From positions 62,001-126,000 of the forward strand of contig WQZD01000005.1 of assembly GCA_009780915.1 (NCBI GenBank): a DNA stretch of 64,000 nucleotides. Reading direction: 5' to 3'. The stretch comes from Propionibacteriaceae bacterium. Its GTDB lineage: Bacteria > Actinomycetota > Actinomycetes > Propionibacteriales > Propionibacteriaceae. The translations under genes and the position numbers were made by a program. Shown piece after piece: positions 15,119 to 60,585 of this stretch; positions within the stretch are counted from its first letter, which is position 1, and the number at the start of each line of letters is the position of its first letter. Below the pieces are notes generated by a model that was not told the origin of the DNA, searched no databases, and was given only the letters and a program-made list of their open reading frames with translations.

Positions 15119-15560
15119 GGGCTCCCCTTGCCGAGGGGGCACGAGGGCGACTCGGGCCCGCCGGGGCCGAAGGGCGAGTGGGCTCCCCTTGCCGGGGGGG
15201 CACGAACTGTTCGTTTCACCCTGAAAAAGAACAGTTCGCGCCCCCCCGATTTCTGCGGGGGCACGAACTGTTCGTTTGACCCCGAAAAAGCACGATTCGC
15301 GCCCCCACGAGAAACCACCGATCGCACCCAACAAGAAACCACAATTCGCGCCCGCCGAAAACCACGATTCGCGCCTCCCGAATTCCGCGGGGGCACGAAC
15401 CGTGCATTTCACCCTGAAAAAGAACAGTTCGCGCCCCCCCGATTTCTGCGGGGGCACGAACTGTTCGTTTGACCCCGAAAAAGCACGATTCGCGCCCCCA
15501 CGAGAAACCACGGTCCGCGCCCGCCGAGAAACCACGGATCGCGCCCCCCCGAGAAAGGAG
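15119..15560. repeat. Cluster of GGGGGCACGAAC hairpin repeats with a 105-bp duplication
   Basis: This fills most of the 526-base gap 15073-15598; I see no gene in it. Four full hairpins lie at 15194-15247, 15257-15306, 15389-15440 and 15450-15499. Each starts GGGGGCACGAAC and ends TTCGCGCCCCC with about 16-25 bases between. The best unit pairs GGGGGGGCACGAACTGTTC with its complement over 19 positions with one A-C mismatch. Degenerate right halves (AAACCACnnTTCGCGCCC) repeat every ~25 bases in 15307-15385 and 15500-15560. Bases 15214-15318 recur exactly at 15407-15511. A separate 14-base repeat GGGCTCCCCTTGCC is at 15119 and 15180. Confidence 0.9.
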
Positions 15561-15598
15561 TATCGGGCACACGGGCACATCACCCCGCCCCGCGCGGG

Positions 15599-16615
15599 TC
15601 ACGCCCTCACGGGCGCCGTGGATCCTCGGTCGATCAGGTGGACGGGCAGCACGAGGGATGTCTTACGTGGGGGGCGGCCGGCGAGTTCGTCGAGGAGGAT
15701 GCGTGCGCCCTCCACCCCTTGGTCGAAGGGGCGCTGGGCCAACGTGGTCAGCCCGAAGGGGTCGGCCATGACATGGTTGTCGATGCCGATGACGGAGATG
15801 TCGTCGGGGACGCTCAGTCCGTGGTGGTTCAGCGACAGCATGGCCCCGAACGCCATTTCGTCCGACGCGGCGAAGATGGCGGTGGGAAGCGGTGACCCAG
15901 ACTCCACAAGGTCGTCGACGACGTCGCGGCTGGCCGACATGGAGAACCGGCCCTCCAGCACCCGCCCCGGATCCGGGGGGATCCCCGCGTCGCGAAGCGC
16001 CTGCTCGTACCCCGTCAACCGCCCCTGGGGGACGCGCGAACTGAGCCCCTGCTGCTCCTCCGCGCCGCCGGTGAGGTGCAGGATGTCGCGGTGCCCCAGG
16101 TCGATCAGGTGCTGGGTCGCCTGGTATCCGGCCGCTACCTCGTCGATGCCGACGAAGCGCAGACCCCGCACGGGAGTGCCGACCACGATGACGGGAAGTC
16201 CCAGTTGCCGCAGTTCCTCGCGCTCCTCGTGGGAGAAGTCCACGCACAGCGCGAGGACGGCGTCACCCCGATGCCGCAACAGCGAGCGCTTGAACGCCCG
16301 TTCCCGCTCCACGCCGACGCCCCCCAAGTTGACCAGGGCCATGTCGTAGTCGGCCTGGCGCAGGACGGTGTCGACTCCTTCGATCACTTGGGAGTAGAAC
16401 CAGAGTCCGACAGCGGGGACGACCACGGATATGGCCATGGCACGCCCGGTGACCAGGCCCGACGCGGCGGCGGAACGCACGTACCCGAGACGATCGGCGG
16501 CCGCTCGCACAACTTGTTTCGTCTGTTGCGAGACCAATGGCAGGTCGCGCAAGGCCCGTGAGACCGTCGACGCGGACATGCCGACCTCGCGCGCCACGTC
16601 TTCGATGCCAACCAT
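15599..16615 (-). CDS. LacI family transcriptional regulator (carbohydrate locus)
   Basis: 338-residue repressor. The helix-turn-helix is at residues 4-24 (IEDVAREVGMSASTVSRAL), followed by the hinge helix (RSAAASGLVTGR) and a periplasmic-binding-protein-like effector domain (AIFAASDEMAFGAM, ISVIGIDNH). It is the last gene of a run with two permeases and a binding protein and very probably senses the imported sugar or a derivative. Two LacI-type operator copies are found at 20187-20213 in the divergent promoter. A GGAGG ribosome site precedes the ATG. The permease-to-regulator gap is 26 bases. Confidence 0.9.
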   Translation of the reverse strand: MVGIEDVAREVGMSASTVSRALRDLPLVSQQTKQVVRAAADRLGYVRSAAASGLVTGRAMAISVVVPAVGLWFYSQVIEGVDTVLRQADYDMALVNLGGVGVERERAFKRSLLRHRGDAVLALCVDFSHEEREELRQLGLPVIVVGTPVRGLRFVGIDEVAAGYQATQHLIDLGHRDILHLTGGAEEQQGLSSRVPQGRLTGYEQALRDAGIPPDPGRVLEGRFSMSASRDVVDDLVESGSPLPTAIFAASDEMAFGAMLSLNHHGLSVPDDISVIGIDNHVMADPFGLTTLAQRPFDQGVEGARILLDELAGRPPRKTSLVLPVHLIDRGSTAPVRA

Positions 16616-16641
16616 GACTCCTCCCTTCCTCCTGGAGCGCT

Positions 16642-17574
16642 TTATCCCTTCGTCGCCCCCGCGAGCAGCCCGCGAACAAAGAAGCGTTGCAGCGCGAAGA
16701 ACACGATGAGCGGTACGATGATAGCCAAGAACGTGCCCGCTGTGAGAAGGTACCACTGCTGTCCGTACTTGCCCGACAGGTCGGCGAGGATCTTCGTGAT
16801 CGGCGCGTTGCTGCCCGAGGTGAAGATGGTGGCGATGAGCAGGTCGTTCCACACCCACAGGAACTGGAAGATGGCGTAACTCGCGATCGTGGGCATGGCC
16901 AGGGGGAGGGCCAATCGCAAGAAGATCTGGCCGTGCCCGGCGCCATCGATCTGGGCGGCCTCCATCACCTCACCGGGGATCGTTGCCAGCGCGTTGTGCA
17001 GCATGAACGTCGCCAGGGGCAGGGCCGACATGGTGTGGGTGATCCACACCTGGGCGAACCCCGAGCCCAGCGAGTTGGCGGCAAAACCGGGGAAGATCTG
17101 GGCCCCGAAAGCCGTGACCCCGCCGGTGTACATCTTGAGCAGGGGCACGAGCAGCATCTGGAGGGGCACGATCTGCAGGGCGAAGATCGCCACGAAGACC
17201 ACATGGCGGCCACGGAAGTCGATCCACGCCAGGGCGTACGCCACGAGCAGGGCGAGCACGATGGGGAAGACGGCCGCAGGAATGGTGATCGTCAGGGAGT
17301 TCCACAGCGTCTGCGTGATCGTGATCCCCGAGGAGACGAAGTCCAGCGTCTGGGAGTAGTTGCTCAGCGTGACTTGGGGGTCGCTGAAGAAGGTCCACCA
17401 CCCCGTGGTCGTGATCGACGTGGCGGGACGGAAGGACGAGACGAACAGCCCGAAGGTCGGGAGGGTCCAGACGGCGGCGATGATGATCGCGCCGATCGTC
17501 GCCCAGGGGCTTGACAAGGTACGATGGGTCTTCTTCACCATGCGGGTGGACGCGGAGATGGCGGTGACGGTCAT
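16642..17574 (-). CDS. Carbohydrate ABC transporter permease, MalG type
   Basis: 310-residue inner-membrane subunit with six hydrophobic segments. The EAA loop that docks the ATPase reads EAAQIDGAGHGQIFLRLALP (about residues 211-230), typical of the sugar CUT1 family. The start overlaps the stop of the partner permease by four bases (ATGA). No ATPase gene is in this operon; the MsmK-type protein encoded at 23401-24492 is the likely energiser. Confidence 0.92.
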   Translation of the reverse strand: MTVTAISASTRMVKKTHRTLSSPWATIGAIIIAAVWTLPTFGLFVSSFRPATSITTTGWWTFFSDPQVTLSNYSQTLDFVSSGITITQTLWNSLTITIPAAVFPIVLALLVAYALAWIDFRGRHVVFVAIFALQIVPLQMLLVPLLKMYTGGVTAFGAQIFPGFAANSLGSGFAQVWITHTMSALPLATFMLHNALATIPGEVMEAAQIDGAGHGQIFLRLALPLAMPTIASYAIFQFLWVWNDLLIATIFTSGSNAPITKILADLSGKYGQQWYLLTAGTFLAIIVPLIVFFALQRFFVRGLLAGATKG

Positions 17575-18713
17575 GAGTGGCTCCTCACCAGGGATCGGGC
17601 GTTGTACGCGATGAAGGGGATCACCAAGATGAAGATCAGCATGGCCAACGCCGCCGAGTGTCCCGTCTGCGGGGGGAAGAGCGAGAACTGGCGGACCATC
17701 TCGTACCCCAGCACGGACGTGTTGTTATAACCGGCGGTAGTGACGGCGATGATGTCGTACACCTTCAGGGACGTGATCGAGATCGTGATCCAGACCACGA
17801 CGATGGTCGGGCGGATGGTGGGGATGATCACGTTGACGAACCGGCGCACAGAGGAGGCGCCGTCGATCTGAGCCGCTTCGATCAGCTCGGCCGGCACCGA
17901 CTTGATGGCGGCGGACAGGATCACCATGGCGAAGCCCGTCTGCGACCAGATGAGGATCGCGATCATAAGGAACATGTTCAGCGGATAGCTCTGGAGCCAG
18001 TTGACCGGGGCGCCGCCCAGCGCGATCACGACCTGGTTGAGCAGTCCGATCTGATTGCCCTGCCGGTAGTCGTAGAAGAATTTGAAGATGATCGACGCGC
18101 CGACGAAGGAGATCGACATCGGCATGAAGATGAGCACTTTGAGGAGTTTCTCGGCTCGCGAGCGGTCCACCCACAGGGCGTACACCAAGCCGATCCCGGT
18201 GGCGAACACCGGAGCGACGAGCACCCAGACGATCGTGTTGAGCAGGCTGGTGAGCCCCCCGGATCCGCCCGAGGAGAAGACCCACACGAAGTTGTCGAGA
18301 CCGACGAATTTCGTGCCGGTCTTGTCCATGAACGCGGAGACCATGGTACGGATCGTGGGCCAGACCAGTCCGACCACGAGGAGGGCCAGCGCCGGAGAGA
18401 CGAACAGAGCCAACTGGATCAGCCTGCCCCGTCCCTTGGCGGAGCGGGAGTCGAGCCAGAACAGCCCGCCCCCCAGGACCGCGCCGAGCAGGAAGACCCA
18501 TGCCACCCCGCGTTCCAGCCCGAGCAGGGCCAAGACGGCGACGGGGACGCCGACGGCGATCCCCAGCCTGACCCAGGTGTACGCCCGCCCGGGACGCGGG
18601 GCGATTTCGATGAGGACGATGATCACGCCGACCACGACGAGGAAGGCCGCGAGCACCACAGGTATTTGAAGCAGCTGGGGCAGATGTGCCAGCCAGGAGA
18701 AGAATGCCTGCAT
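17571..18713 (-). CDS. Carbohydrate ABC transporter permease, MalF type
   Basis: 380-residue membrane subunit. It has two or three extra N-terminal hydrophobic segments before the six-segment core and an EAA loop ELIEAAQIDGASSVRRFVNV, as in CUT1 MalF-like permeases. It lies 32 bases after the binding-protein gene and overlaps the MalG-type gene, so the three are one operon. The extended N-terminus (~90 residues with hydrophobic helices) is longer than in many MalF homologues. Confidence 0.9.
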   Translation of the reverse strand: MQAFFSWLAHLPQLLQIPVVLAAFLVVVGVIIVLIEIAPRPGRAYTWVRLGIAVGVPVAVLALLGLERGVAWVFLLGAVLGGGLFWLDSRSAKGRGRLIQLALFVSPALALLVVGLVWPTIRTMVSAFMDKTGTKFVGLDNFVWVFSSGGSGGLTSLLNTIVWVLVAPVFATGIGLVYALWVDRSRAEKLLKVLIFMPMSISFVGASIIFKFFYDYRQGNQIGLLNQVVIALGGAPVNWLQSYPLNMFLMIAILIWSQTGFAMVILSAAIKSVPAELIEAAQIDGASSVRRFVNVIIPTIRPTIVVVWITISITSLKVYDIIAVTTAGYNNTSVLGYEMVRQFSLFPPQTGHSAALAMLIFILVIPFIAYNARSLVRSHS

Positions 18714-18745
18714 GCCGCGCCTTCCTCGTCGTTGGTCAGTCGGGT

Positions 18746-20071
18746 TTAGGCGTCAGCCCAGGACTTCTGGATCTGAGCCAGGACAGTGCCCTGGTCGACT
18801 CCATTGATCCAGTCGACGGTGCCCTTCCACCAGGCCTGCTGCACGACGGACGGCATGGAGTCGCCGGCGCCGAAACGGAAGGTCGTGGTGGGATCTTTGA
18901 GGGTCGTGATGGCCTGGGCCAGCAGCGGGTCGGTCTCCTTGGTCACATCCACGCCCTTGTTGGCGGTGATGAAGGTGGCGTCAGGGACTGTGATGAGGCT
19001 GTTGGCGTAATCGCCGGATGCCAGATAGTTCATGACCTGCTGGACAGCGGGGCTGTTCGTGAAGGCCACGGCGAAGTCGCCGCCGCCGACGACGGACGGG
19101 GTGCCCGCCACGGGAGGCATCATGAAGGCCCACACGTCACCGGTCGGGCCCACGGTCGGGGTGGCGCCGGAGGCGGTCTTGGCTGTGGCGAAGGAGGCTT
19201 CCAGGAAGGTGGCCTGGTTCGTCATCGCGCAGGTGCCGTCGGCCAGGGCGTTGGCCACGTCGCCGAAGGCGGTGGAGTTGATGGACGCCACGTCGCCGAA
19301 ACCAGCGTTGACGTACTTCGGATCGAGCAGGATCTTGCCCATCGCCGTGAAGGCGTCGGCGATCGGCTGATCGGTGAACTTCACGTCGCCGGAGACCCAC
19401 TGGTCGTAGACCTGGCCACCCGAGGCGGACAGGACGTACTCGGCCAGTTGGTCGGTGCCCGGCCACCCGGACGCGTCACCGGAGTTGAAGCCCGCGCACC
19501 ACACCGGCTGGCCCGTCTTCTGCTGGATGGTGTCGGTCAGCGTCATGAGGTCGGCCCAGGTGGTCGGCACGGTGACGCCCCAGGCCGTGAAGGCCGCAGG
19601 CGAGTACCAGATGTAGCCCTTGGCCGACGCGTCCAGGGGCACAGCGTACTGCTGGCCGCTGACCGTCCCATAGGACTGCCAGTCGGTCGAGAAGTTCTGC
19701 TTGACCGTGGCCAGCGTCGTGGCGTCCAGTTGTTGCACCTTGCCCGTCTCGATGACGGACTTCATCAGACCCGGTTGCGGGAAGACGGCGATGTCGGGCA
19801 AGGCGTTGCCCTGGATCTTCGTCGAGATGTTCGTGGTGAAATTCTGATCCCCGGTGTACTGAATGGTGATGTTGTTGGCGGCCGCCCAGGCCTTCCAACT
19901 CGCCTCCCATTGCGTGCCTTCGTTGCCCGTGGGCGTTCCGTAAATGGTGACGATCTGCGGGGCGGAACCGGTTGTGCTCGGCGAGCCCGAGGGCGATTGA
20001 GAGCATCCGGCCAAAGCCATCGAGGCGACTGCCACTCCCACAATGCCATAAGTAATAAAGCGTTTTGCCAT
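18746..20071 (-). CDS. Carbohydrate ABC transporter substrate-binding lipoprotein
   Basis: 441-residue extracytoplasmic sugar-binding protein (SBP family 1). The signal peptide ends in lipobox MALAGC, followed by a Ser/Pro/Gly linker. Aromatic-rich segments (GYIWYSPAAFTAWGV, DASGWPGTDQLAEYVL) are typical of alpha-glucoside binders such as AglE/ThuE. A strong AAAGGAG ribosome site precedes the ATG. As first gene after the operator region it should be the most highly expressed of the operon. Ligand identity is inferred from the linked GH65 phosphorylase. Confidence 0.9.
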   Translation of the reverse strand: MAKRFITYGIVGVAVASMALAGCSQSPSGSPSTTGSAPQIVTIYGTPTGNEGTQWEASWKAWAAANNITIQYTGDQNFTTNISTKIQGNALPDIAVFPQPGLMKSVIETGKVQQLDATTLATVKQNFSTDWQSYGTVSGQQYAVPLDASAKGYIWYSPAAFTAWGVTVPTTWADLMTLTDTIQQKTGQPVWCAGFNSGDASGWPGTDQLAEYVLSASGGQVYDQWVSGDVKFTDQPIADAFTAMGKILLDPKYVNAGFGDVASINSTAFGDVANALADGTCAMTNQATFLEASFATAKTASGATPTVGPTGDVWAFMMPPVAGTPSVVGGGDFAVAFTNSPAVQQVMNYLASGDYANSLITVPDATFITANKGVDVTKETDPLLAQAITTLKDPTTTFRFGAGDSMPSVVQQAWWKGTVDWINGVDQGTVLAQIQKSWADA

Positions 20072-20186
20072 GAAAACTCCTTTGTCATTTCTGCACCACT
20101 GAGGGGTTGGCTCACACGTGGAGCCTCCCGCGAACCATCGTGGCCCACAGCTCGTATTCCCAAGCGTAGGGGCAATCTCTATCCAA

Positions 20187-20226
20187 TTGCAAACGTTGGC
20201 GGCAAACGTTACCATTTCTATATAAA
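20187..20226. promoter_or_regulatory. Divergent promoter with two LacI-type operators
   Basis: GCAAACGTT occurs twice in tandem, 13 bases apart, in TTGCAAACGTTGGC (20187-20200) and GGCAAACGTTACC (20201-20213), matching LacI/CcpA-style half-sites. For the plus strand, TTGGCG (20196-20201) and TATATA (20219-20224) stand 17 bases apart. For the minus strand, TTTGCC and GATAGA can be read over the same bases, also 17 apart. Bound repressor would silence both the transport operon and pgmB-GH65. Confidence 0.65.
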
Positions 20227-20277
20227 AGGAGCTTTCGCAGGTCTGATGATCGGATCGGCCGGACAGATGAGGTGCTC

Positions 20278-21042
20278 ATGGATAGTTTGTGTCCCACTCT
20301 CGCCGGCGCCGAAGCATGCCTCTTCGACCTCGACGGAGTCCTGACCCCGACCGCCGACGTGCATAAACGCGCGTGGACTCAGTTGTTCGGCACAGTCTTC
20401 GGGCAGTACACGGCCAGCCCGCCCTTCACCGACCACGACTACTTCACGTTGGTGGACGGACGTCCTCGGTACGACGGGGTGCGCGCCGTCCTGCTCTCCC
20501 GTGACATCCATCTGCCCGACGGCGACCCGGCGGAGCCTCCCTCCACACGGACGGTGTGCGGGATGGGCAACCTCAAGGACTCCCTCTTCCTGGCCGACCT
20601 CGACAAGGACGGCGTCCAGCCCTACCCCGGATCGGTGCGATTCCTCCAGGTCGCCATGGCCGCGGGCCTCAGCGTCGCCGTGGTGTCGGCGTCGAAGAAC
20701 GCCCGGCACGTCCTGCGGGCGGCGGGTCTCCTGGACTGTTTCGACACCATCGTGGACGGGCGCGTCGCCGCCGACCTGGGCTTGCGCGGCAAGCCCTTCC
20801 CCGACACGTACGTGGAGGCCGCCCGACGCCTCGACGTCGCCCCGAACCGAGCCGTCGTGATCGAGGATGCCCTGGGAGGCGTGGAAGCCGGACGAGTCGG
20901 CGGGTTCGGCCGCGTGATCGGTGTGAATCGTGGCGCCGGCGCCCAACCCTTGCTGTCACACGGGGCGTCCCTGGTCGTCGACGATCTGGCCGAGTTGCTG
21001 GTGGAGGACAGGCCCCGGCGCTGCGCACAGGAGACCACATGA
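20278..21042 (+). CDS. pgmB: Beta-phosphoglucomutase (HAD superfamily)
   Basis: Interconverts beta-glucose-1-phosphate and glucose-6-phosphate. The 254-residue protein has the HAD motif FDLDGVLTPTADVHKRAW (nucleophile and acid/base aspartates, with the His and Trp of the beta-PGM cap), VVSASKN for motif II/III and VIEDALGGVEAGR for the magnesium site. An insertion around residues 55-90 is larger than in lactococcal PgmB. It overlaps the GH65 phosphorylase gene by four bases (ATGA). That enzyme makes its substrate, so the two steps are co-produced. ATG 20278 is preferred, with GAGG 5 bases upstream; GTG 20272 is in frame. Confidence 0.9.
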   Translation: MDSLCPTLAGAEACLFDLDGVLTPTADVHKRAWTQLFGTVFGQYTASPPFTDHDYFTLVDGRPRYDGVRAVLLSRDIHLPDGDPAEPPSTRTVCGMGNLKDSLFLADLDKDGVQPYPGSVRFLQVAMAAGLSVAVVSASKNARHVLRAAGLLDCFDTIVDGRVAADLGLRGKPFPDTYVEAARRLDVAPNRAVVIEDALGGVEAGRVGGFGRVIGVNRGAGAQPLLSHGASLVVDDLAELLVEDRPRRCAQETT

Positions 21043-23342
21043 CCGCCCGTACCACCGCGTGGAGCCTGGTCGACGACTCCGTCGACTCCGGCGGCCACGC
21101 CCAGACCCTCTTCGCCCTCGGCAACGGTTTCCTCGGAGCACGCGGCGCCGTGGAGGAAGATCTGACGAGCACCGGCCAGGTCTTCGCCAACGGGTTCTAC
21201 GAGACCTGGCCCATCGTGTACCCCGAGGACGCGTACGGCTTGGCCCGCACGGGCCAGACCATCCAAGCCGTGCCCGACCCCACCCATGTCGCCCTGATCG
21301 TCGATGGGCATCCGTTCGATCCCGCCACGGCGACGCTGCGGGAGCACCGGCGGTGGCTCGACCTGCGCGCGGGGACCCTGAGACGTCACGCGACCTGGGT
21401 TCTGCCCGGCGGCCTGGTGGTCGAGATCGAGTCGACACGTGTGGTGTCGACCACACGACCCGAGTGCCTGGCCATGGAGTACGCCGTCACGACGTCCGCC
21501 GACGCCCAGGTCGAGATGACGCACTGGATTCTCGTCCCCGGCCGCGCGGCCGGCCACGCCGGGCTCGACCCACGACGCTCCACCGCGCTCGCCGACGCCA
21601 CCCGGGTCACCACCGACGAGGGCGACTGGGCGCGTCACCGGCTCGTCATGCGCACGCGATCCTCCGGGATCGGGGTGGCGTGCTCCGTGCGGCGCACCCT
21701 GCGAGGCGGGGTCCAGGACAGGCTCGACCCCGTCCGGACCGACGCCGGCGTCGGCGTGACGACATCCGTCCGACTGGCCGCCGGCACGCCGCTGACTCTG
21801 CGCGTGAGTGCGGCGTACGCCACGGACGGCCCTTTGCTGACCGACACGCAGGCGCCGACGACAGACCTCGCCCTCGTCGGGAGCGCCGACCGGGTCCTGG
21901 ACGACTGGTCCGCCGTGGACTGGGACGACCTGCTCGCCGACCAGGCCGACGCCCTCGCGCAGTGGTGGTCCACGACCGACGTGGAAGTCGGCGGGGACGA
22001 GGTCGACCAGGGCGCCATCCGCTGGAACCTCTTCCAGACCTTCCAGGCCGTCGCCCACAACCTGGGCCACGGGATCCCGGCCAAAGGGGTCAGCGGCAGC
22101 GGGTACGACGGACACGCCTTCTGGGACACCGAGGCCATGGTCATGCCGATCCTGACGTACACCCATCCCCGGATGGCACGTTCCGCCTTGTCGTACCGCC
22201 ATCGCCTGCTCCCCCGCGCCCGCGAGCGCGCGGCCGAACTGCACCACGCGGGCGCCCTGTTCCCGTGGCGCAGCATCGACGGGCGCGAGGCGTCGGCCTT
22301 CTTCGAGGCGGGCACGGCCCAGTACCACATCGACGCGGACATCGCGTACGCCATCAACCGGTACCTCCGCTCGACCCTGGACCTGGCCTATCTCACAGCC
22401 GAAGGCGCGGAGATCCTCGTGGAAACGGCCCGTATGTGGGCCAGTCTGGGCTTCTTCGACTCCCGCGGCGGCTTCCACATCCACGGGGTCACCGGCCCGG
22501 ACGAGTACTCGGCCATGGTCGACGACAACCTGTTCACCAACGTCATGGCGGCGGCCAATTTCGACGCCGCGGCCTTCTGGTTGGAGTGGCTGCGCGGCCA
22601 GGACCGGACCGCCTGGGCCGAAGCCCGTCGCCGCTTCCGTCTGGACGACGCTGAGATCGCCTCCTGGCGGGCGGCGTCGGCTGCGATGACCATCCCGTAC
22701 GACGAGGCTCTGGGGGTCCATGGACAAGACGCCCATTTCCTGGAGCACGAGGTGTGGGACTTCGCCGGGACCCCGCGCGAGATGTACCCGCTCCTGCTGC
22801 ACTTCCACCCGCTGACCATCTACCGCCATCAGGTCCTCAAGCAGGCGGACGTGGTCTTGGCGCTCATCAACCGCCCGGACCTGTTCACACCCGACCAGAT
22901 GCGCGCCGACTTCGACTACTACGATCCGCTGACCACGGGGGACTCGACGCTGTCAGCCTCCACGCAGGCCATCATGGCCGCCACGGTCGGGCACCTCGAT
23001 TTGGCCGAGCACTATTTCCGATCCAGTCTGCGCATCGACTTGGACGACGCCCACGGCAACACCTCGGACGGGGTCCATGTCGCCGCCGTCGCGTCCGTGT
23101 GGACCACCCTGGTCATGGGCTTCGGCGGCTTCCGCGACTATGGGGGGTACAGCCTGGACCCCCGCCTCCCCGAGGGATGGACGCGCCTGGCCTTCCACCT
23201 GCGCCTGCTGGGCGCCCTGGTGCTCGTGGAGATCGCCGAGCACGGCGTGGGGCTGACGGTGTGCGAGGGCGACGCTGTGGACATGACTGTGTACGGGACG
23301 CCCGTGCGCGTCGAGGGGCAGTGCTTCATCCCTCGTCCGTGA
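21039..23342 (+). CDS. Glycoside hydrolase family 65 disaccharide phosphorylase
   Basis: Cytoplasmic inverting phosphorylase that splits an alpha-glucoside (maltose, trehalose, kojibiose or nigerose) with phosphate into beta-glucose-1-phosphate and glucose. The 767-residue protein has the N-terminal beta-sandwich (LFALGNGFLGARGA) and the (alpha/alpha)6 barrel with KGVSGSGYDGHAFWDTEAM and the catalytic acid in VTGPDEYSAMVDDNLFTN. KQADVV, used to contact phosphate in this family, is also present. Sequence alone does not fix the disaccharide. Linked pgmB and the ABC importer support a disaccharide uptake and phosphorolysis pathway. Confidence 0.9.
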   Translation: MTARTTAWSLVDDSVDSGGHAQTLFALGNGFLGARGAVEEDLTSTGQVFANGFYETWPIVYPEDAYGLARTGQTIQAVPDPTHVALIVDGHPFDPATATLREHRRWLDLRAGTLRRHATWVLPGGLVVEIESTRVVSTTRPECLAMEYAVTTSADAQVEMTHWILVPGRAAGHAGLDPRRSTALADATRVTTDEGDWARHRLVMRTRSSGIGVACSVRRTLRGGVQDRLDPVRTDAGVGVTTSVRLAAGTPLTLRVSAAYATDGPLLTDTQAPTTDLALVGSADRVLDDWSAVDWDDLLADQADALAQWWSTTDVEVGGDEVDQGAIRWNLFQTFQAVAHNLGHGIPAKGVSGSGYDGHAFWDTEAMVMPILTYTHPRMARSALSYRHRLLPRARERAAELHHAGALFPWRSIDGREASAFFEAGTAQYHIDADIAYAINRYLRSTLDLAYLTAEGAEILVETARMWASLGFFDSRGGFHIHGVTGPDEYSAMVDDNLFTNVMAAANFDAAAFWLEWLRGQDRTAWAEARRRFRLDDAEIASWRAASAAMTIPYDEALGVHGQDAHFLEHEVWDFAGTPREMYPLLLHFHPLTIYRHQVLKQADVVLALINRPDLFTPDQMRADFDYYDPLTTGDSTLSASTQAIMAATVGHLDLAEHYFRSSLRIDLDDAHGNTSDGVHVAAVASVWTTLVMGFGGFRDYGGYSLDPRLPEGWTRLAFHLRLLGALVLVEIAEHGVGLTVCEGDAVDMTVYGTPVRVEGQCFIPRP

Positions 23343-23350
23343 ATAAACCA

Positions 23351-23384
23351 ACGGGCCATCCCCCGCGATGGGAGGATGGCCCGT
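23351..23384. terminator. Bidirectional terminator between GH65 and msmK-type genes
   Basis: A perfect 11-bp stem (ACGGGCCATCC / GGATGGCCCGT) with a 12-base loop lies between two convergent stop codons (23342 and 23401). Confidence 0.75.
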
Positions 23385-23400
23385 GTCAGGTCAGGACTTC

Positions 23401-24492
<1,092 letters not shown>

Positions 24493-24780
24493 AGCGGTAT
24501 AACCTTTCCACGGGCGGTACGTGCCCGACGATCCTTTGTGGAGGGTGTGTCCCTTCCGGTCCAGTCTGTCACGTTTCATGGGCACGTCAAGTTATGGGCA
24601 GGCGGATTCGGTGCGCGTCCCCAGGGGGCGGCCCCAGGGCGCGGGCCAGCGCGTGGGCCCATGCGTGGGCCCACGTCCGTCCATGTCCGTCCCAATGCCC
24701 GTCCATTCGTGGCGACCCGTCCTAACAAGGTACGATGGCGGGCAGCGGCGATCAACGACGCAGGAGACGACAGGCACGCC

Positions 24781-25548
24781 ATGGCTGAGACCCCGAACCC
24801 CGACGAGACCCCGGACGAGACCCCGAACCCCGACGAGACCCCGGACGAGACCCCGGACGAGCGACTCGACGACGAGAAGCCCTGGTGGGACGATCCTTCA
24901 CTGCCCTGGCGCCACAAGCCGACCCGCGCCGACCTGGCGTGCTGGGCCTGGATCGCGGTGGTCGGCGTCTACGGTCTGGTGATGATCCCCCTGCGTACCG
25001 TCCTCATCGGCTGGAGCCCGCCCTTCGCCGCCATGATCAGTGGCGGGCGCACGTCGGTGGTGGCCACCGGCGCCTGGGTACGAGTCGGGGGCGGACCGCT
25101 GATCCTGTACTGGCTGGTCGCGGCCCTGTCCCTCGTCAAGTTCTCATGGGTGTACTGGTGGGCCGGAAAACTCTGGGGCACCGGCATCCTCGACATCCTC
25201 GCTGGGAGGTCGGAACGCGCCAAGAAGCGCGCCGACCGCGCCGTCCGCCTGACCAACCGCTATTGGCTCGTGGCCATCTTCCTCACCTTCTTGCCCATCC
25301 CCTTCCCCATGCCGATCGTGTACGCGGCCATCGGCGCCGCCGGGACCCGGCTCATCCGTTTCCTGGTGCCCGTCGTCGTGTGCTCGGCCCTGTTCCAGGC
25401 CGGCTACATGGCCCTGGGGTGGTGGATCGGTGAACCCGCCGTCGCCATCGTCAACCTGTACGCCAAGTACATGTGGTACGTGATGCTGGCCGTCCTCGCC
25501 GGCATGGTCATCGCCTGGCTCTGGCGGCGACGCTCCACAGCGCAGTGA
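24781..25548 (+). CDS. Integral membrane protein, possibly DedA/VTT-like
   Basis: 255-residue membrane protein. The first ~35 residues are acidic and repetitive (ETPNPDETPDETP, encoded by a ~30-base tandem repeat). Four to five hydrophobic segments follow. The loop FLPIPFPMPIVYAAIGAAG and the small-residue-rich helix before it resemble DedA-family half-barrels, but the match is loose. No partner genes adjoin. ATG 24781 is the first start giving a sensible protein. Confidence 0.6.
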   Translation: MAETPNPDETPDETPNPDETPDETPDERLDDEKPWWDDPSLPWRHKPTRADLACWAWIAVVGVYGLVMIPLRTVLIGWSPPFAAMISGGRTSVVATGAWVRVGGGPLILYWLVAALSLVKFSWVYWWAGKLWGTGILDILAGRSERAKKRADRAVRLTNRYWLVAIFLTFLPIPFPMPIVYAAIGAAGTRLIRFLVPVVVCSALFQAGYMALGWWIGEPAVAIVNLYAKYMWYVMLAVLAGMVIAWLWRRRSTAQ

Positions 25549-25558
25549 CGATGTGGGG

Positions 25559-25766
25559 GATGTGGACGTGGTGACTCCCTAGTGGCGCGTCGGTGGCGCG
25601 TCGGTGGCGCGTCGGTGGCGCGTGGGTGGTGCGTGGATGACTCCCGGGTGGTGCGTGGATGACTCCCGGGTGATTCCCGGGTGGCGCGCGGATGGGGCAT
25701 GGATGGGGCGCGCTGATTCCCGGGTGACTCCCAGGCGGGGCGTGGATGAGGCGTGGATGAGGACAC
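25559..25766. repeat. 11-bp minisatellite, about 19 units
   Basis: Units of 11 bases alternate between GGTGGCGCGTC/G-like and GATGACTCCCG-like forms from 25559 to 25766 (one unit, 25713-25722, is 10 long). Three adjacent units from 25592 are nearly identical. The tract starts 10 bases after the membrane-protein stop and is followed directly by hairpin repeats. No plausible gene is encoded. It is part of the 530-base gap 25549-26078. Confidence 0.85.
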
Positions 25767-25785
25767 CTGGACGCACAGGTGGGGC

Positions 25786-25899
25786 GCGGGGGCACGAACT
25801 GTCGGCTTAGAGGCGAAAACGGACAGTTCGTGCCCCCGCAATTTTTGTGGGGGCACGAACTGTGGTTTCTACGCGCGTAGACGAACGGTTCGCGCCCCC
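25786..25899. repeat. Two GGGGGCACGAAC hairpin repeats
   Basis: Unit 25786-25839 has perfect 18-bp arms (GCGGGGGCACGAACTGTC and its complement). Unit 25849-25899 has GGGGGCACGAACTGT facing ACGGTTCGCGCCCCC and contains an inner palindrome TCTACGCGCGTAGA. The left arms are 61 bases apart, matching spacing at other loci. Confidence 0.9.
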
Positions 25900-25941
25900 G
25901 CGGGAAGCTCATGCGTACGTCTCCGGTCTGGGGAAAGGGGG

Positions 25942-25995
25942 GTACGCGTCACGGGGTCCGGGGGCAGGTGTAGTACGCGTCACGGGGTCCGGGGG
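25942..25995. repeat. 23-bp direct repeat pair
   Basis: The 23 bases at 25942-25964 (GTACGCGTCACGGGG...) recur exactly at 25973-25995, 31 bases on; a shorter echo (ACGGGGTCCGG) follows at 26044. Function unknown. Confidence 0.75.
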
Positions 25996-26078
25996 AATGC
26001 ACAGGCGATGAGGACACCGTACGACCCATCGTCCACAGGCATTGACGGGGTCCGGACTCATCGGATCGATCGGATCGC

Positions 26079-26801
26079 TCAGATGGCGATGGCCCGTCCA
26101 CCCTCTCGTCCCCGGTCACGCCAATCATCGGTGACCGGAACCTTGTTCGCCGGGGTCCCCAGGTCGATGGTGCGTACCGTCCGGGCGGCGGTGGGCGCGG
26201 AGATGTAGGTCGCCGGAACCACGGTGATCGGGTCCCACAAGGACATCTGCACGTCGCCGTTCGGCCCGATGATGACGGAGTCCACGGCGGCATCGGTCTT
26301 CGGGTCCAACTGTACGGTCATCGTCTTCTCGTCGTCGCCCAACTCGGTGTCCGCGATGATGGCGGCGAGTTGCTTGTGCGCTCGACGGGCTTCGAACTGG
26401 GAGAACACCGCCCATCCGACCACGACCCCCGCGCCGACGACGGGCACCCACCAGCGCAGTCCCAGTCCGAGGACTGCGAACGGGACTGTGCCCAAGCAGA
26501 TCATGACGAGGGCGGCGAACACCGCGCGGCGTCGCTTCTCGGCTTTCCGTGCGAGACGCATCGCCGCACGTCGACCGGCTCGGCGCATGAGCATCGTGGA
26601 GACCTCGGGCGCCTTCTCATCCTGACTGGCCACGGGGATCCCCGTGTGGACCGTCTTCATCGTCGAGCGGGACGGCGCCGGTTGGTCGATCTCCTCCTGG
26701 GTGGGGATGCGCCAGGTCAAATGCCTCGGCACGAAGTAGAACAGGCATGCCACAACGACCACGGCGAAGATCGGTCCAGAGGCATCCATGCCACTCACCA
26801 T
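26079..26801 (-). CDS. Hypothetical membrane protein
   Basis: About 240 aa; not recognised. A hydrophobic segment at the extreme N-terminus (PIFAVVVVACLFYFVP) is followed by a charged linker, a basic stretch (RRAGRRAAMRLARKAEKRRR), then two adjacent hydrophobic segments (residues ~108-150) and a soluble C-terminal domain ending GREGGRAIAI. The topology suggests a small membrane protein with a cytoplasmic tail. The start could be ATG 26801 (AGGA 10 bases upstream) or ATG 26789. The 3' end faces the repeat-rich gap. Confidence 0.6.
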   Translation of the reverse strand: MVSGMDASGPIFAVVVVACLFYFVPRHLTWRIPTQEEIDQPAPSRSTMKTVHTGIPVASQDEKAPEVSTMLMRRAGRRAAMRLARKAEKRRRAVFAALVMICLGTVPFAVLGLGLRWWVPVVGAGVVVGWAVFSQFEARRAHKQLAAIIADTELGDDEKTMTVQLDPKTDAAVDSVIIGPNGDVQMSLWDPITVVPATYISAPTAARTVRTIDLGTPANKVPVTDDWRDRGREGGRAIAI

Positions 26802-26970
26802 AGGGTATTCATCCTGATAATCCCCAGCGAACTCGCCGCGACCCCGGCAGTTTGAGTAGGTCGGGAGGTATGTGGATGGTCTGGTGGGTGGCAAGATCGG
26901 GGGTCTCCGGTTGTTCGGGTGGGTGGTCGAGAGCAGACACCCATTCGTGAGATTCTCTATGTCGTTAGAT

Positions 26971-26980
26971 CGATATATCG
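26971..26980. promoter_or_regulatory. AT-rich palindrome in a repeat-rich divergent gap
   Basis: CGATATATCG is a perfect 10-base palindrome inside an unusually A+T-rich stretch (26950-26992) of the 663-base gap 26802-27464 between divergent genes. It could be a promoter or operator. The rest of 26802-27019 shows nothing else I can name. Confidence 0.3.
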
Positions 26981-27019
26981 TCATATCGCTCCCGAATGCT
27001 CTCCCCGTCATGCGTTGAC

Positions 27020-27264
27020 ACAGCCGCCGCGGGGGCACGAACCGTTGCCACCAACCCACATCGTAACCGCATCGTGGACCACAGCCGCCGCGGGGGCGCG
27101 AACCGTTGGTATGAAACGTCTCAATGAACGGTTCGTGCCCCCAGGGAAATCGCGGGGGCACGAATCGTGCTTTTCGTGCCGTGGATGGACGGTTCGCGCC
27201 CCCGTGGTTGTGGCGGGGGCACGAGTAGTTGTTATCAGGCTCTGGACGGACAGTTCGCGCCCCC
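27020..27264. repeat. Array of GGGGGCRCGAAC hairpin repeats, ~61-bp period
   Basis: Left arms start at 27031, 27092, 27154 and 27215 (spacings 61, 62, 61). The first is a half unit; full hairpins are 27092-27142, 27154-27203 and 27215-27264. A 29-base block before the first two left arms (27020-27048 and 27080-27108) is the same but for one base. The unit at 27092 has swapped polarity: GCGCG on the left and CGTGC on the right. Confidence 0.9.
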
Positions 27265-27267
27265 GCG

Positions 27268-27444
27268 CGACTGGCCCACCGTCACGGGGCACGCATGGGC
27301 AGACATGAACGGCGCGACTGTCGACGCGACTGGCCCACCGGCGCGGGAGACGCGTAGACATCATGAACATAAACGACCTAAGGTCCGACTGGCCCACCAA
27401 CGCGGGGGGGCACGCATTGTAGACGTCCACCCAGTCGGCGTCCA
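27268..27444. repeat. Three 59-bp tandem repeats
   Basis: CGACTGGCCCACC recurs at 27268, 27327 and 27386, exactly 59 bases apart, each followed by a CGCGGG-like run and CACGC or GACGC with AGACAT nearby. The last unit ends about 20 bases before the FAH-family gene start. Confidence 0.75.
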
Positions 27445-27464
27445 CGCACGAGTACGCTGGTGGT

Positions 27465-28274
27465 ATGCGCATAGCACGATTCACCCATCACGGCGCACCC
27501 ACGTACGGCGTGGTCGAACTCGCCTCCGACGGGGGCTCGCATCCCGACACGGTCGCCATCGTCGCGTCCGACCCACTGGCCGGAGCACCCACGTACACCG
27601 GGGAGCGTGTCGACTTGGCCGACGTCCAGTTGCTCGCGCCGGTGATCCCGCCCACCAAGGTGGCGTGTATCGGCAAGAACTACGCTGACCACATCTCCGA
27701 GCAGGGGGGCACGTCCTTGCCGCCCGAGCCCATCGTGTTCTTCAAGCCCACCACATCAGTCATTGGCACGACTGAAGCCATCGTCCGCCCACACGAGACC
27801 GACCTGTTGCACTATGAGGGGGAACTGGTCGTGGTGTTCAACCAGACCTGCCGCAGGGTCCCGGAAGAACGGGCCGAGGACGTCATCTTCGGATACACCA
27901 TCGCCAACGACGTCACCTGCCGAGACCTCCAGGCCAAAGATGGTCAGTGGTCGAGGGCCAAGGGGTTCGACACGTTCTGCCCCCTCGGCCCGTGGATCGA
28001 GACCGATCTGACCCTGCATGAGGCCGGGAACCTGCACCTGCGCACACGGGTCAACGGCGAGGTGCGCCAGGACGCCGACACGAGCCTCATGCTGCACCCC
28101 ATCGCCCGGTTGATCGCCCATGTGAGCGCATTCACCACCCTGAAACGCGGTGACATCCTGCTCACCGGCACACCTGCCGGGGTCGGTGAGATCCTCCCCG
28201 GCGACACCGTCAGTATCGAGATCGACCGTATCGGCACCCTCACCAACCCCGTCATCCCGGAGCTCATGTCCTGA
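27465..28274 (+). CDS. Fumarylacetoacetate hydrolase (FAH) family protein
   Basis: 269-residue cytoplasmic enzyme of the FAH superfamily, whose members hydrolyse or decarboxylate beta-diketo or 2-keto acids with a divalent metal. It shows KVACIGKNYADH, the metal ligand set around HYEGELVVV, NDVTCRDLQ, KGFDTFCPLGPW and TGTPAGVG. It resembles the YcgM/oxaloacetate-decarboxylase-like branch; the substrate is not determined. TACGCT (27453-27458) ends 6 bases before the ATG, indicating a leaderless mRNA. Confidence 0.9.
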   Translation: MRIARFTHHGAPTYGVVELASDGGSHPDTVAIVASDPLAGAPTYTGERVDLADVQLLAPVIPPTKVACIGKNYADHISEQGGTSLPPEPIVFFKPTTSVIGTTEAIVRPHETDLLHYEGELVVVFNQTCRRVPEERAEDVIFGYTIANDVTCRDLQAKDGQWSRAKGFDTFCPLGPWIETDLTLHEAGNLHLRTRVNGEVRQDADTSLMLHPIARLIAHVSAFTTLKRGDILLTGTPAGVGEILPGDTVSIEIDRIGTLTNPVIPELMS

Positions 28275-28335
28275 GAGCCCGTCGGCGCCTTCTCGTCTCA
28301 TACCGCCCCTTGACCGTACCCCCTCGCATGACCAC

Positions 28336-28552
28336 GGGGGCACGAGCTGTCTGTTTCCACCATCAAACACGACAGTTCACGCCCCCACGACCAGGCCCAC
28401 CGACCAGACCCACGCCCACCCCATCACCACGGGGGCACGAACCGTGCGTTTCCACCGTTAAAACCACGGTTCGCGCCCCCACGGCGGTAGGGCTGGCTTG
28501 GGGGGGCACGAACCCTCGATCCGCAAACAAAAAACGCCCGGTTCACGCCCCC
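28336..28552. repeat. Three GGGGGCACGA hairpin repeats
   Basis: Units 28336-28386, 28431-28480 and 28502-28552 fill most of the 314-base gap 28275-28588 between convergent genes. The second pairs GGGGGCACGAACCGTG with CACGGTTCGCGCCCCC. Loops carry GTTTCCACC then an A-rich run, echoing the loops at 15.2 kb. The third unit shares its right arm with the terminator at 28533-28578. Confidence 0.88.
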
Positions 28553-28578
28553 ACGTGGGGGATCATGAACCGGGCGTT
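28533..28578. terminator. Large bidirectional hairpin between FAH and uracil permease genes
   Basis: A 13-base stem AACGCCCGGTTCA / TGAACCGGGCGTT encloses a second perfect stem CCCCC-ACGT-GGGGG. It lies 10 bases past the permease stop on the minus strand and probably ends both convergent transcripts. Confidence 0.75.
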
Positions 28579-28588
28579 CGACGATTCG

Positions 28589-42807: not shown

Positions 42808-42814
42808 GGCGATC

Positions 42815-54995: not shown

Positions 54996-55132
54996 ACGTC
55001 AGTCGCAGCCCCACCACACCGACCCGGCCCGCGACCACCGCGCACACCCCCTGACATCACACACGCCTTTCATGTCTTTGCCAATTCACATGGACGGGTG
55101 GACACTAGTGGAATCGACTCGAACGGACGACG

Positions 55133-56203: not shown

Positions 56204-56220
56204 CCCCCACGCACTCGCCG

Positions 56221-57639: not shown

Positions 57640-57640
57640 C

Positions 57641-58327
57641 TTATGTGGATTCCTTCAGGACGTACCCGACCCCCCGCACGGTGTGGATCAGCCGAGGCTG
57701 GGAATCCGCCTCCATCTTGCGGCGCAGATACCCGATGTAGACCTCCAGGGAGTTGGCCGTGGTGGGGAAGTCGAATCCCCACACCTCGTTGAGCAGCCAG
57801 CCGCGCTCCAAGACGCGACGCGGGTTCTCCATGAACGCCAGCAGCAGGGCGAACTCCGTGCGGGTGAGCGCGATGTGGCGTCCCGCCCGGGTGACCTCCC
57901 TCGTCGCAGGGTCGAGCACCAGATCAGAGAAGGTCAGCGACTGGCTGGGCTCCCCCTCCTCGACGGGATGGACCCGCCGGGTGAGGGCCCGCAACCGGGC
58001 CAAGAGCTCGTCGAGGGCGAAGGGCTTCATCATGTAGTCGTCCGCCCCGGCGTCCAAGCCGTCGACACGGTCCTCGATCGCGTCGCGAGCCGTCAAGATC
58101 AGGATCGGCACGTCGTTGCCCGACGCCCGCAGCATCCGCGTGGCCTCTAGGCCGTCGAGCCTGGGCATCATCACGTCCATGACCACGGCGTCGATCGAGC
58201 CGGACGCCAGCTTCGCCAGCGCCTCGATCCCGTCCTGGGCCGTCGTGACCTGATAACCGGTGTACTGCAACGAGCGTGCGAGAGAATCTCGTACGGCTTG
58301 GTCATCGTCCACGACAAGGATATGCAT
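57641..58327 (-). CDS. Response regulator, OmpR/PhoB family
   Basis: 228 aa. Receiver with VVDDD, phospho-Asp in [10 protein letters not shown] (residue 51), T in LTARD and K in MMKPF; the C-terminal winged helix ends [20 protein letters not shown]. MprA-like. CACAAT lies 6 bases before ATG 58327, so the operon may start leaderless. Regulated genes are not apparent. Confidence 0.93.
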
Positions 58328-58402
58328 GATCCGATTGTGCCATGTTTACGTGAGTCGCGGGTAGCCAACGCGCGGACCCTGACGGTCGCGACGGGCCCGG
58401 GC

Positions 58403-59482: not shown

Positions 59483-59593
59483 GATGTTCTCCTCGTCTGC
59501 TGCACTCGACGCTGTTTGCGTCAACCAGCTACCTCAGTGCAGTTTACACTCGCTGAAAACCATGTTCAGCTATCATCGAGAACTAGACGACTT

Positions 59594-59618
59594 GCCCGTC
59601 CCACTGAATGGGACGGGC
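59594..59618 (-). terminator. Terminator of the aldo/keto reductase gene
   Basis: Perfect 10-bp stem GCCCGTCCCA / TGGGACGGGC with a 5-base loop, 22 bases after the reductase stop and upstream of ino1. Confidence 0.7.
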
Positions 59619-59640
59619 GTCGCCGCAAGCGGGAAGGTCC

Positions 59641-60459
59641 TCAGCCGATGGCGTCGAGCTCGGCCATGTCGTCGGCGCTCAACTCGAAATCGATCTGGGT
59701 GTTGGACACGATGTACTCGGGATGGACGGCCTTGGGCAGGGGCAGGCAGCCCTTCTGCAGGGCGTACCGGATGCACAGCTGGGCCACCGACACGCCGTTG
59801 CGTGTGGCCACGGCGGCGACCTGTGGGTCGTCGAGCAGTTTCCCCGTCGCGATCGGCGAGTACGCCTCGACCAGGATGGCATGTTGCTGGCAGTACGCCA
59901 CGAGGTCGGCCTGCGTGTGGCCGACGTGGAGGCGGATCTGGTTCGCCATGGGGGCGGTGGCCGCGTGAACAGTGATGTTCTCGATGTCGGCGATCGAGAA
60001 GTTGGACACGCCGATGGCCCGTACGTCCCCTCGCTGGTAGGCCTCCTCCATGGCCGTCCACACGGCGAGGTTCTCCTCGAAGTACGTCGTGTCGATGCCT
60101 TTGAACATCTCCGGCCACGGCTTGGGCGCGTGGATCAGCAGCAGGTCGATGTACCCCAGGTCCAACTGGGCGAGCGAGGTCTCGATCGAGGTCTTCGCCT
60201 GCTCATAGCTCTTGAACTCCGCCTTGACCTTGGTGGTGATGAACAGGTCCTCCCGGAGCAAGCCGCTGGCCCGCACCCCCTGGCCCACCCCTTCTTCGTT
60301 CTGATAAGCCCGAGCCGTGTCGATGTGGGTGTACCCCGAACGCAGAGCGCCCTGCACCACCTCGGAAGCGACCTCGTTCGGCGTCTGCCAGGTGCCGAAT
60401 CCCAGCTTGGGGATCGACACGCCATTGGACAATGTGAAATGCTCTGATAATACGCCCAT
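59641..60459 (-). CDS. Aldo/keto reductase
   Basis: 272-residue NADPH-dependent TIM-barrel reductase. The tetrad is visible: Asp and Tyr in HIDTARAYQNEEG, Lys in FITTKVK, His in LLIHAPKPWP; then GVSNFS and VEAYSPIATG. It is close to the 2,5-diketo-gluconate reductase group. GGAGGAATC precedes ATG 60459. Substrate unknown. Confidence 0.92.
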   Translation of the reverse strand: MGVLSEHFTLSNGVSIPKLGFGTWQTPNEVASEVVQGALRSGYTHIDTARAYQNEEGVGQGVRASGLLREDLFITTKVKAEFKSYEQAKTSIETSLAQLDLGYIDLLLIHAPKPWPEMFKGIDTTYFEENLAVWTAMEEAYQRGDVRAIGVSNFSIADIENITVHAATAPMANQIRLHVGHTQADLVAYCQQHAILVEAYSPIATGKLLDDPQVAAVATRNGVSVAQLCIRYALQKGCLPLPKAVHPEYIVSNTQIDFELSADDMAELDAIG

Positions 60460-60524
60460 GATTCCTCCATCGATGTCAGGCCATCTCCACCCTAGAACGC
60501 CCAACGGAGATAGTCAATGGTCAC

Positions 60525-60585
60525 GCCGCAGGGGCGCGAACTGCTGGTCCACGGGTGCGAAATCGACAGTTCGCGCCCCCGCGGC
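60525..60585. repeat. Single GGGGCGCGAACTG hairpin repeat
   Basis: GGGGCGCGAACTG and CAGTTCGCGCCCC pair perfectly over 13 bases, extended by GCCGC / GCGGC outside. It belongs to the same family as the elements at 15.2, 25.8, 27.1 and 28.4 kb and lies 8 bases after the bpa stop. Confidence 0.88.

Follow-up and report, generated by a model that had tools for sequence, protein, structure and literature searches.

The genome of this gut bacterium contains at least 98 copies of a palindromic unit, grouped into 42 clusters in 281 kb, and the family appears to be a new, apparently species-restricted variant of the bacterial palindromic repeats. Each unit consists of two near-invariant 15-nt arms flanking a middle of 20 or 21 nt, giving a total of 50–51 bp. 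As the best explanation, held with moderate confidence, we propose that these are species-restricted, miniature, non-autonomous palindromic elements that are similar to REPINs and BIMEs in build and apparent spread, without the transposase of those systems. They were probably spread in trans by a putative arm-reading enzyme.

An earlier sequence-only reading of the 64,000-nucleotide stretch analysed here (the window) had listed 13 hairpins. All of them are present, and their starts had been placed correctly to within 0–5 nt, the true GGGGGC starts lying 0–5 nt further in (Table 1). The same reading described conserved arms around a variable middle of 16–25 bases. The arms are indeed conserved and the middle does vary in sequence, but its length is set, at 20 nt in 63 units and 21 nt in 35. 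In the 20-nt middles, TTT at positions 4–6 is kept in 89–90% and AAA at positions 15–17 in 79–90%, and on inspection the middles are themselves partly palindromic. Lone arms and degenerate right arms are present besides the full units.

Table 1. Elements in the window (window coordinates; units run from GGGGGC to GCCCCC).
Feature	Position	Strand	
Hairpin unit 1, first dimer	15196..15245	.	
11-bp linker CCGATTTCTGC	15246..15256	.	
Hairpin unit 2, first dimer	15257..15306	.	
Two degenerate right half-arms	15344..15378 (12-nt cores 15344-15355, 15367-15378)	-	
Hairpin unit 1, second dimer, closely resembling first dimer	15389..15438	.	
11-bp linker CCGATTTCTGC, second dimer	15439..15449	.	
Hairpin unit 2, second dimer	15450..15499	.	
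Two degenerate right half-arms	15513..15548 (12-nt cores 15513-15524, 15537-15548)	-	
Hairpin unit 1, dimer between convergent genes	25788..25837	.	
11-bp linker GCAATTTTTGT	25838..25848	.	
Hairpin unit 2, convergent-gene dimer; 21-nt middle same as unlinked copy C32:13424	25849..25899	.	
Lone left arm, next left arm 61 bp on	27031..27045	+	
Hairpin unit 1, trimer between divergent genes	27092..27142	.	
Hairpin unit 2, trimer; 11-bp linker each side	27154..27203	.	
Hairpin unit 3, trimer; left arm degenerate	27215..27264	.	
Single hairpin unit, convergent genes around	28336..28386	.	
Single hairpin unit	28431..28480	.	
Single hairpin unit, more diverged	28502..28552	.	
Single hairpin unit, tandem genes around; stem extends into flanking GCCGC/GCGGC	60530..60580	.	

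In the window, the 12-nt arm core, with as many as 2 mismatches allowed, is found 53 times against 33.2 expected, a count reached by none of 100 shuffles. Genome-wide, the exact two-arm pattern gave 45 matches and the single exact arm 212 (103 + 109), with no match for either reversed control. Together with a search using a covariance model built from the genome's own units, the two-arm matches exclude the possibility that the elements are confined to the window. Scoring in the model search ended at 150 candidates, and 98 units is therefore a floor. One further unit was seen at C9:83031-83081 and one lone arm at C2:146411. The arms carry 0–1 mismatches in 79 of the 98 units, though up to 6 were permitted; this conservation is partly a matter of sampling, since the units were recruited by arm similarity. 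Two inverted invariant ends around a set-length, less conserved spacer, the build expected of a REPIN, were found across the 98 units. In the compensatory-change test, arm position 13 agreed in 30 of the 40 first units, against 20 expected, and in 22 of the 40 second units, against 16.7 expected, and position 7 was opposite in 31 of 40 first and 27 of 40 second units, while pairing counts for the whole structure did not exceed those of shuffles.

The units form 58 runs: 36 dimers, mostly head-to-tail, 20 singles, and 2 trimers. Two of the singles (C6:109516 and C31:32287) adjoin, at 11 bp, a 60-nt variant unit that falls outside the unit pattern used, and two copies were left out of the covariance-model alignment, namely the C31 unit of 60 nt and one member of an identical C16 pair. 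The gap between adjacent units is exactly 11 bp and AT-cored in 39 of 40 pairs. In 21 of the 58 runs a further arm lies 13–16 nt past one end only, a spacing shared by 16 clusters whose spacer sequences mostly differ. Same-orientation arm pitches peak at 29–31, 42, and 61–62 bp, with half-arm arrays at about 30 and 42. As for orientation within dimers, position 7 is equal in the left arms of 31 of 40 pairs and the right arms of 23 of 40, and the wobble strand of the two units agrees in 15 dimers, disagrees in 3, and is undecided in 18. Dimer direction showed no clear association with GC skew. A CRISPR-like reading, with right arm, linker, and left arm as the repeat, was dropped by inspection because the middles are partly palindromic and 20 of the 58 runs are single units.

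Genes were called with our own codon-bias finder, not a standard program. As had been read, the five loci of the window lie between tandem, convergent, divergent, convergent, and tandem gene pairs, and none of the 13 units overlaps a gene; genome-wide this last claim does not hold, as 2 of the 42 clusters lie in frame inside predicted genes, an ABC exporter ORF and a GCV_T-domain ORF. Both in-frame copies occupy variable loops of conserved genes, where the aligned relatives have no such sequence (ABC alignment, 13 of 18 relatives, with G004, G006, G007, G016, and G018 left out; YgfZ alignment, 9 of 18, with 16 loci tried, 7 absent from the alignment, and G007 and G010 outside it). In-frame presence within protein genes, which these two clusters display, recalls the Rickettsia palindromic elements (RPE) as outlined in PMC3733652; the RPE host is unrelated, however, intragenic clusters here number only 2 of 42, and the likeness drawn is one of description.

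Intergenic regions with an element are tandem in 19 cases, convergent in 12, and divergent in 4, against 52, 15, and 31 without one (chi-square p 0.014). This relative enrichment of convergent and depletion of divergent pairs, and the ATTTT that the linker places about 3 nt after the first hairpin on one strand of the dimer, would suit transcription terminators or mRNA 3'-end stabilisers working as RNA hairpins. However, of the 22 dimers that could be scored, 12 have the linker T running in the direction of transcription, and of the 24 runs that could be scored, 13 have the coding strand as the one on which G.T wobbles preserve the pairing. A simple terminator scan of 15000–29000 (loops of 3–8 nt only) returned one site, away from the elements. 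Copies are also found between divergent genes and within ORFs. We share the earlier view that terminator function alone does not explain them; the evidence does not support a role as terminator or RNA, and we consider it improbable.

Alternatively, a chromosome-structuring or regulatory protein of the host could read the arms, as dsDNA or cruciform, with selection at each site keeping them. In line with this, most arm positions are held while the middles are near saturation: unlinked pairs of the commonest class, those whose middles are 40–60% different, have 0.49 differences per nt in the middles and 0.018 at the 22 least variable arm positions. The fixed 11-bp and ~15-bp spacings and the three arm pitches would also suit arrayed sites, and exact arms are abundant (212 in the genome). 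On the other hand, 18 genus relatives are without a pattern match, two copies are intragenic and in frame, and many clusters arose as local duplications. Moreover, the 74 neighbouring genes contain 167 Pfam families, of which the 25 commonest have at most 4 of 74 members each and none dominates; on this result a regulatory operator was also rejected. Host binding sites are, in our estimate, a rather unlikely account.

The copies also bear marks of local change. The flanks of certain clusters recur at clusters elsewhere, and the elements are surrounded by minisatellite-like intergenic DNA. Middles are more alike within one dimer (0.605) than among unlinked dimers (0.488), which speaks against our favoured explanation and makes some dimers look locally made. 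Likewise, the four closest unlinked pairs have more differences per nt in the arms (0.075) than in the middles (0.012), again contrary to it. Hairpins and G-rich flanks might seed replication slippage, template switches, and ectopic gene conversion, so that the elements would be a mutational by-product with no dedicated enzyme. The half-arm arrays, the duplications of dimer plus flank, the alike middles, the minisatellite-like surroundings, and the flanks common to some distant clusters fit such an origin. It is hard to reconcile with unlinked dispersal with fairly sharp ends (outer pairing beyond the run edges weakens after ~5 bp), the 13–16-nt spacing of the further arm despite mostly differing spacers, and the copies within conserved genes, and we rate it as unlikely.

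The lack of a matching transposase and of a target-site duplication weighs against the non-autonomous, mobile elements that we favour. The REP-associated tyrosine transposase (RAYT) suggested earlier was not found: Y1_Tnp (PF01797) had no match in the genome, while 5 of 14 control genomes were positive, and within the genus only G007 and G015 (2 of 19) have it. As the assembly searched is 99.37% complete in 45 contigs, a RAYT gene could still lie in an assembly gap. Two other movers were rejected. An IS110 transposase had no match in the genome, and the one reverse transcriptase gene found lies alongside the repeats of a diversity-generating retroelement, with no arm in the surrounding 3.6 kb. 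No transposase was present among the 25 commonest Pfam families of the 74 neighbours, nor in 27 neighbour genes scanned singly. No convincing target-site duplication was detected; the best 5-bp direct match, out of 1792 offset/length combinations, is shared by 4 of the 58 runs, against 0.29 expected, and two of these four are local duplicates. The ~112-bp dimers do end in inverted repeats, to which outer-flank pairing adds 4–5 bp, as in a MITE derived from a conventional DDE transposon whose terminal repeats read (GGCCGY)GGGGGCRCGAACYGT. Given the lack of a convincing duplication, the presence of the same inverted arms internally, in every unit, and the absence of a transposase from the neighbour matches seen, a MITE seems very unlikely.

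Outside this genome no element was found: neither in 18 other genomes of the genus by pattern search, nor in 197 other genomes of the family with the covariance model (scoring limited to 30 candidates per genome, strict filters), nor as an exact pattern in GTDB and viral-contig collections, nor by blastn of one dimer with flanks against plasmid and phage collections. The orthologous intergenic regions are short in two relatives, both with genomes lacking an element match. At the gathering score, Rfam returned only tRNA and msiK for the window and 20 of 30 element-bearing stretches, neither at the elements, so that no known small RNA family was recognised there. At E ≤ 1, a search of 24000–29000 gave msiK and a plant microRNA match over the elements at 27087–27209, which we attribute to chance, its E being 0.017 and its score 27.4 bits against a gathering score of 200. 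The earlier reader knew of no described family with this core, and our literature search, conducted without most subscription journals, likewise found no description; two arm 12-mers occur in a pig circovirus capsid study, presumably as primers (PMC3074528).

The REP/BIME-like reading holds for the anatomy (dispersed, mostly extragenic units with conserved inverted arms and a variable middle, dimers, and depletion between divergent genes); no RAYT was found. Bertels and Rainey (2011, PMC3116915) describe REPINs as REP doublets forming hairpins, in which the inverted 16-mers are invariant and the spacer is less conserved, its length and its ability to form a hairpin being what counts; doublets are over-represented. 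Our elements have in common with them near-invariant inverted ends (15 bp, 16 bp there), a less conserved pairable spacer of set length, extragenic location, and many copies; they differ in that no RAYT was found and in their head-to-tail dimers, 11-bp AT-cored linker, and some one-sided further arms. REPs are expected to be of 20–40 bp, in high copy, and mainly extragenic; the 98 units are mostly extragenic but measure 50–51 bp. The GTAG and CGTC REP superfamilies, as summarised by Di Nocera (2013, PMC3733652), are likewise palindromic, often dimeric, and mostly between unidirectional or convergent genes, with some intragenic copies. Here the unit is longer and neither tag is seen, with GTAG within 10 nt at 0 of 116 run ends and a fixed CGTC at no more than 6 of 116 at the best offset. 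BIMEs, as described in PMC2817692, are also composite arrays of regularly spaced palindromic units, but these alternate in orientation, whereas the dimer units here mostly have the same orientation.

Under the explanation that we favour, the replicating unit would most likely be the ~112-bp dimer (arm, middle, arm, 11-bp AT-cored linker, arm, middle, arm), with one more arm in some copies, ~15 nt outside one end. The putative trans-acting enzyme would recognise the arms GGGGGCRYGAAYYGT, which pair into long hairpins, the middle would be constrained mainly in length with some pairing, and local slippage or unequal exchange would have produced the half-arm arrays and duplicated clusters. In support of this explanation stand the anatomy, the copy number, the fixed spacing, the lack of matches in the other genomes searched, the in-frame copies in two genes, the contrast between conserved arms and divergent middles, and sibling copies at unlinked loci; for example, the units at C5:87849 and C32:13424 have middles equal at 21 of 21 positions and arms differing at 2 of 30 bases. 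Enzyme-mediated insertion, the hairpin substrate, and the continued existence of the enzyme are all three what we infer. The analysis covered one strain of the species, and insertion sites were compared with relatives only. More specifically, and doubtfully, a mobile system other than Y1/RAYT may be at work, in which a putative protein family would read the 15-nt arms and move head-to-tail dimers, the one-sided further arm being a mark of polarity and in-frame landing in variable protein loops being tolerated. The genus relative G005 has a distinct, likewise dense family of palindromes whose outer edges bear similar tandem arrays, and it too lacks a Y1 match; the same putative mover could therefore serve several palindrome families.

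As described in PMC3733652, CGTC REPs are apparently without a dedicated transposase, and their mobiliser is left as an open question. The present genome offers a clean test case for such RAYT-less REP-type repeats, with one family, about 100 copies, fairly sharp ends, visible polarity, recent sibling copies, copies in conserved genes, and no enzyme candidate of the usual type. Should several species of the genus turn out to own a family each, comparing the genes that they carry could help to identify the missing enzyme.

All 13 hairpins that the sequence-only reading claimed for the window are present in its sequence as described. In the window's own genome (G000; 2.78 Mb, 45 contigs), the two-arm pattern gave 45 exact matches and the single arm GGGGGCRYGAAYYGT 212 exact occurrences, with none for the reversed control in either case. 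A covariance model of the hairpin (47 units as input) found at least 150 matches in G000, both strands counted and 150 of 1839 candidates scored. Within 280,694 bases, comprising the surroundings of the model matches and the window, 98 units in 42 clusters were counted when up to three substitutions were allowed per arm; one more unit lies on contig C9. No Rfam family matched the elements at gathering score in the window or in 20 of 30 element-bearing stretches, and no description of the family was found in the literature searched for REP repeats and for the arm sequence. Among named genomes, the six best relatives of one window protein (82–87% identity) are from metagenome-assembled "Propionibacteriaceae bacterium" records, whose isolate codes we take to denote termite-gut samples.

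In each unit, two inverted 15-nt arms flank a middle whose length is 20 nt in 63 units and 21 nt in 35; there is at most one arm mismatch in 79 of the 98 units. The hairpin extends past the arms, because TTT at positions 4–6 and AAA at 15–17 of the 20-nt middles are conserved at 79–90%. The units form 58 runs (36 dimers, 20 singles and two trimers), and the gap between neighbouring units is exactly 11 bp in 39 of 40 pairs and 13 bp in the other, with a linker consensus of roughly SSG-ATTTT-CGY or its reverse. Base pairing extends 4–5 bp outside the run ends. A further arm of the same orientation lies 13–16 nt outside one end of 21 runs (right in 11, left in 10, both sides in none); since some runs are local duplicates, these represent 16 clusters. 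As judged from arm position 7 in 40 pairs, both units of a dimer usually have the same orientation: left and right arms of the first unit are opposite in 31 pairs, while across a pair left arms are equal in 31 and right arms in 23. Covariation was mixed, with agreement above expectation at arm position 13 and below it at position 7, patterns that common descent could both produce, and whole-structure counts were not above shuffled controls.

By site, 20 clusters are between tandem, 12 between convergent and four between divergent genes, two are inside genes and four at contig ends. This orientation mix differs from that of element-free gaps of 60–1500 bp in the same stretches (p 0.014), divergent gaps being under-represented among element sites. 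In the relatives G001 and G002, whose genomes gave no element match, the spaces orthologous to window positions 26790–27464 and 28275–28588 were estimated from alignments at ~130–200 bp and <100 bp, respectively. An RNA role was not supported, as the strand that pairs better coincides with the coding strand in 13 of 24 scorable runs and the direction of the linker Ts matches transcription in 12 of 22 dimers. A simple scan of window 15000–29000 found no terminator-like sites at the elements. An msiK cis-regulatory RNA and minisatellite-like G-rich repeats were also noted (table).

Elements and other features in G000 and relatives (C, contigs of G000; L, stretches of DNA taken for study)
Feature	Position	Context
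Element, dimer with extra arms	C1:119709	read through in 1309-aa ORF
Element, unit	C21:43114	in frame, residues 163–180 of ORF with GCV_T domain
Sibling copies, first pair	C5:87849; C32:13424	unlinked sites
Sibling copies, second pair	C5:89092; C17:34679	unlinked sites
msiK RNA (Rfam)	window 24496–24553 (−)	
G-rich tandem repeats, minisatellite-like	L035 3600–3850; window 25600–25780	intergenic, close to elements
Retroelement-like locus	L231:5123–10227 = C10:63122–68226	
~98-bp repeat	L042:3284–3381; L056:11676–11774; L062:1–98; L063:1–98	
229-bp stretch	L040 left flank (~C2:84180–84410); L042 right flank	both adjoin elements
CRISPR-array-like repeat	L171 ~8000–10000	G009

The earlier statement that no unit overlaps a gene does not extend across G000, where two of the 42 clusters are intragenic and in frame. 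The 1309-aa ORF contains two membrane and two ATPase stretches of the ABC-transporter kind. The element sits in the linker that joins the first membrane part to the first ATPase and encodes approximately residues 335–393, with three 10-residue repeats of type DSSCPRDGE. We call this ORF CydDC-type from the preceding cytochrome bd subunit II gene and from its domain order, which we assume to be that of CydDC. The linker ranges from a few residues up to a G000-like length (G012) in 13 aligned relatives, none of which has sequence matching the element there. In G015, the same linker (L205) contains the peptide CHPERSEGSLPADGEILRCAQDD, apparently a translated copy of another widespread palindromic repeat. 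The GCV_T ORF, which we take to be YgfZ-like, is ~40 residues longer at the element site in G000 than in the shortest of nine aligned relatives; the element contributes ~17 of these, much of the remainder being a low-complexity stretch. The G009 counterpart has a stretch of similar length and different sequence. As both sites are variable loops, the exact insertion boundaries are not fixed in either gene.

Most arm positions are conserved while middles drift. In the commonest class of unlinked unit pairs (2453 non-independent comparisons), middles differ by 0.49 per nt and the eight variable arm positions by 0.36, against 0.018 at the 22 least variable arm positions. Sampling on arm similarity exaggerates this contrast, yet mismatches drop off well under the permitted limit. 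The four closest unlinked pairs, two of which touch contig ends, are counter-evidence, their arm difference (0.075) exceeding that of the middles (0.012). Sibling copies at unlinked sites show that spread took the middle along with the arms. Together with the dispersal of copies, their fairly sharp ends, the preference for dimers, the polarity and the presence of copies in conserved genes, they suggest that the family is a non-autonomous mobile element, the arms of which would be recognised in trans by an enzyme, as proposed likewise for REPINs in the available text of PMC3116915. We only infer this mobilising enzyme, because neither Y1_Tnp nor IS110 transposase was found in G000. No convincing target duplication was found around the runs. 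The strongest rival explanation is that a host protein binds the arms. Middle similarity is 0.605 inside a dimer versus 0.488 between unlinked dimers, which suggests that dimers may also be re-formed locally.

The likening to REP/BIME elements stands in part. The family appears to work like a REPIN, but it lacks the defining tags of the two REP superfamilies described in the available text of PMC3733652 and the alternating unit orientation of BIMEs, and the anticipated RAYT was not found in G000; it is therefore not filed as REP, BIME or REPIN proper. Actinomycetota genomes with many palindromes are among those listed in the available text of the RepRanger survey (PMC12306157).

G000 carries other repeats as well. 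At one locus on C10, a reverse transcriptase ORF carries at its upstream end a template-like repeat of 118 nt. A copy with 92% identity lies close to the end of an open frame of 1065 codons; nine of ten differences are at template A positions, and the locus looks like a diversity-generating retroelement. A ~98-bp repeat with CCTGGGG...CCCCAGG ends is 96% identical between C26 and C4/C39/C42; C39 and C42 start with it, and in C4 and C26 it apparently lies between inverted flanks, like a hairpin loop. The 229-bp stretch, 85% identical between its two places, is another dispersed repeat.

Among relatives, no such dispersed palindrome family was seen among the 25 top 13-mers in 100 kb each of G017 and G009, and the G011 sample has one set of repeats at five places. 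In G009, one repeat has 15 same-strand copies in ~2 kb. A different, dense palindrome family with 22 core matches was found in 100 kb sampled from G005 (L179–L183), which gave no Y1_Tnp match; separate inverted pairs of AGGGGACGGGGCGTTTGTCAC occur there as well. These palindromes form REP-like dimers, CGTC-ATTCTGCG...CGCAGAAT-CCA, with the outer edge tandemly repeated in several copies, a form that agrees with what PMC3733652 describes for the CGTC superfamily. The G005 family hints at a broader pattern.
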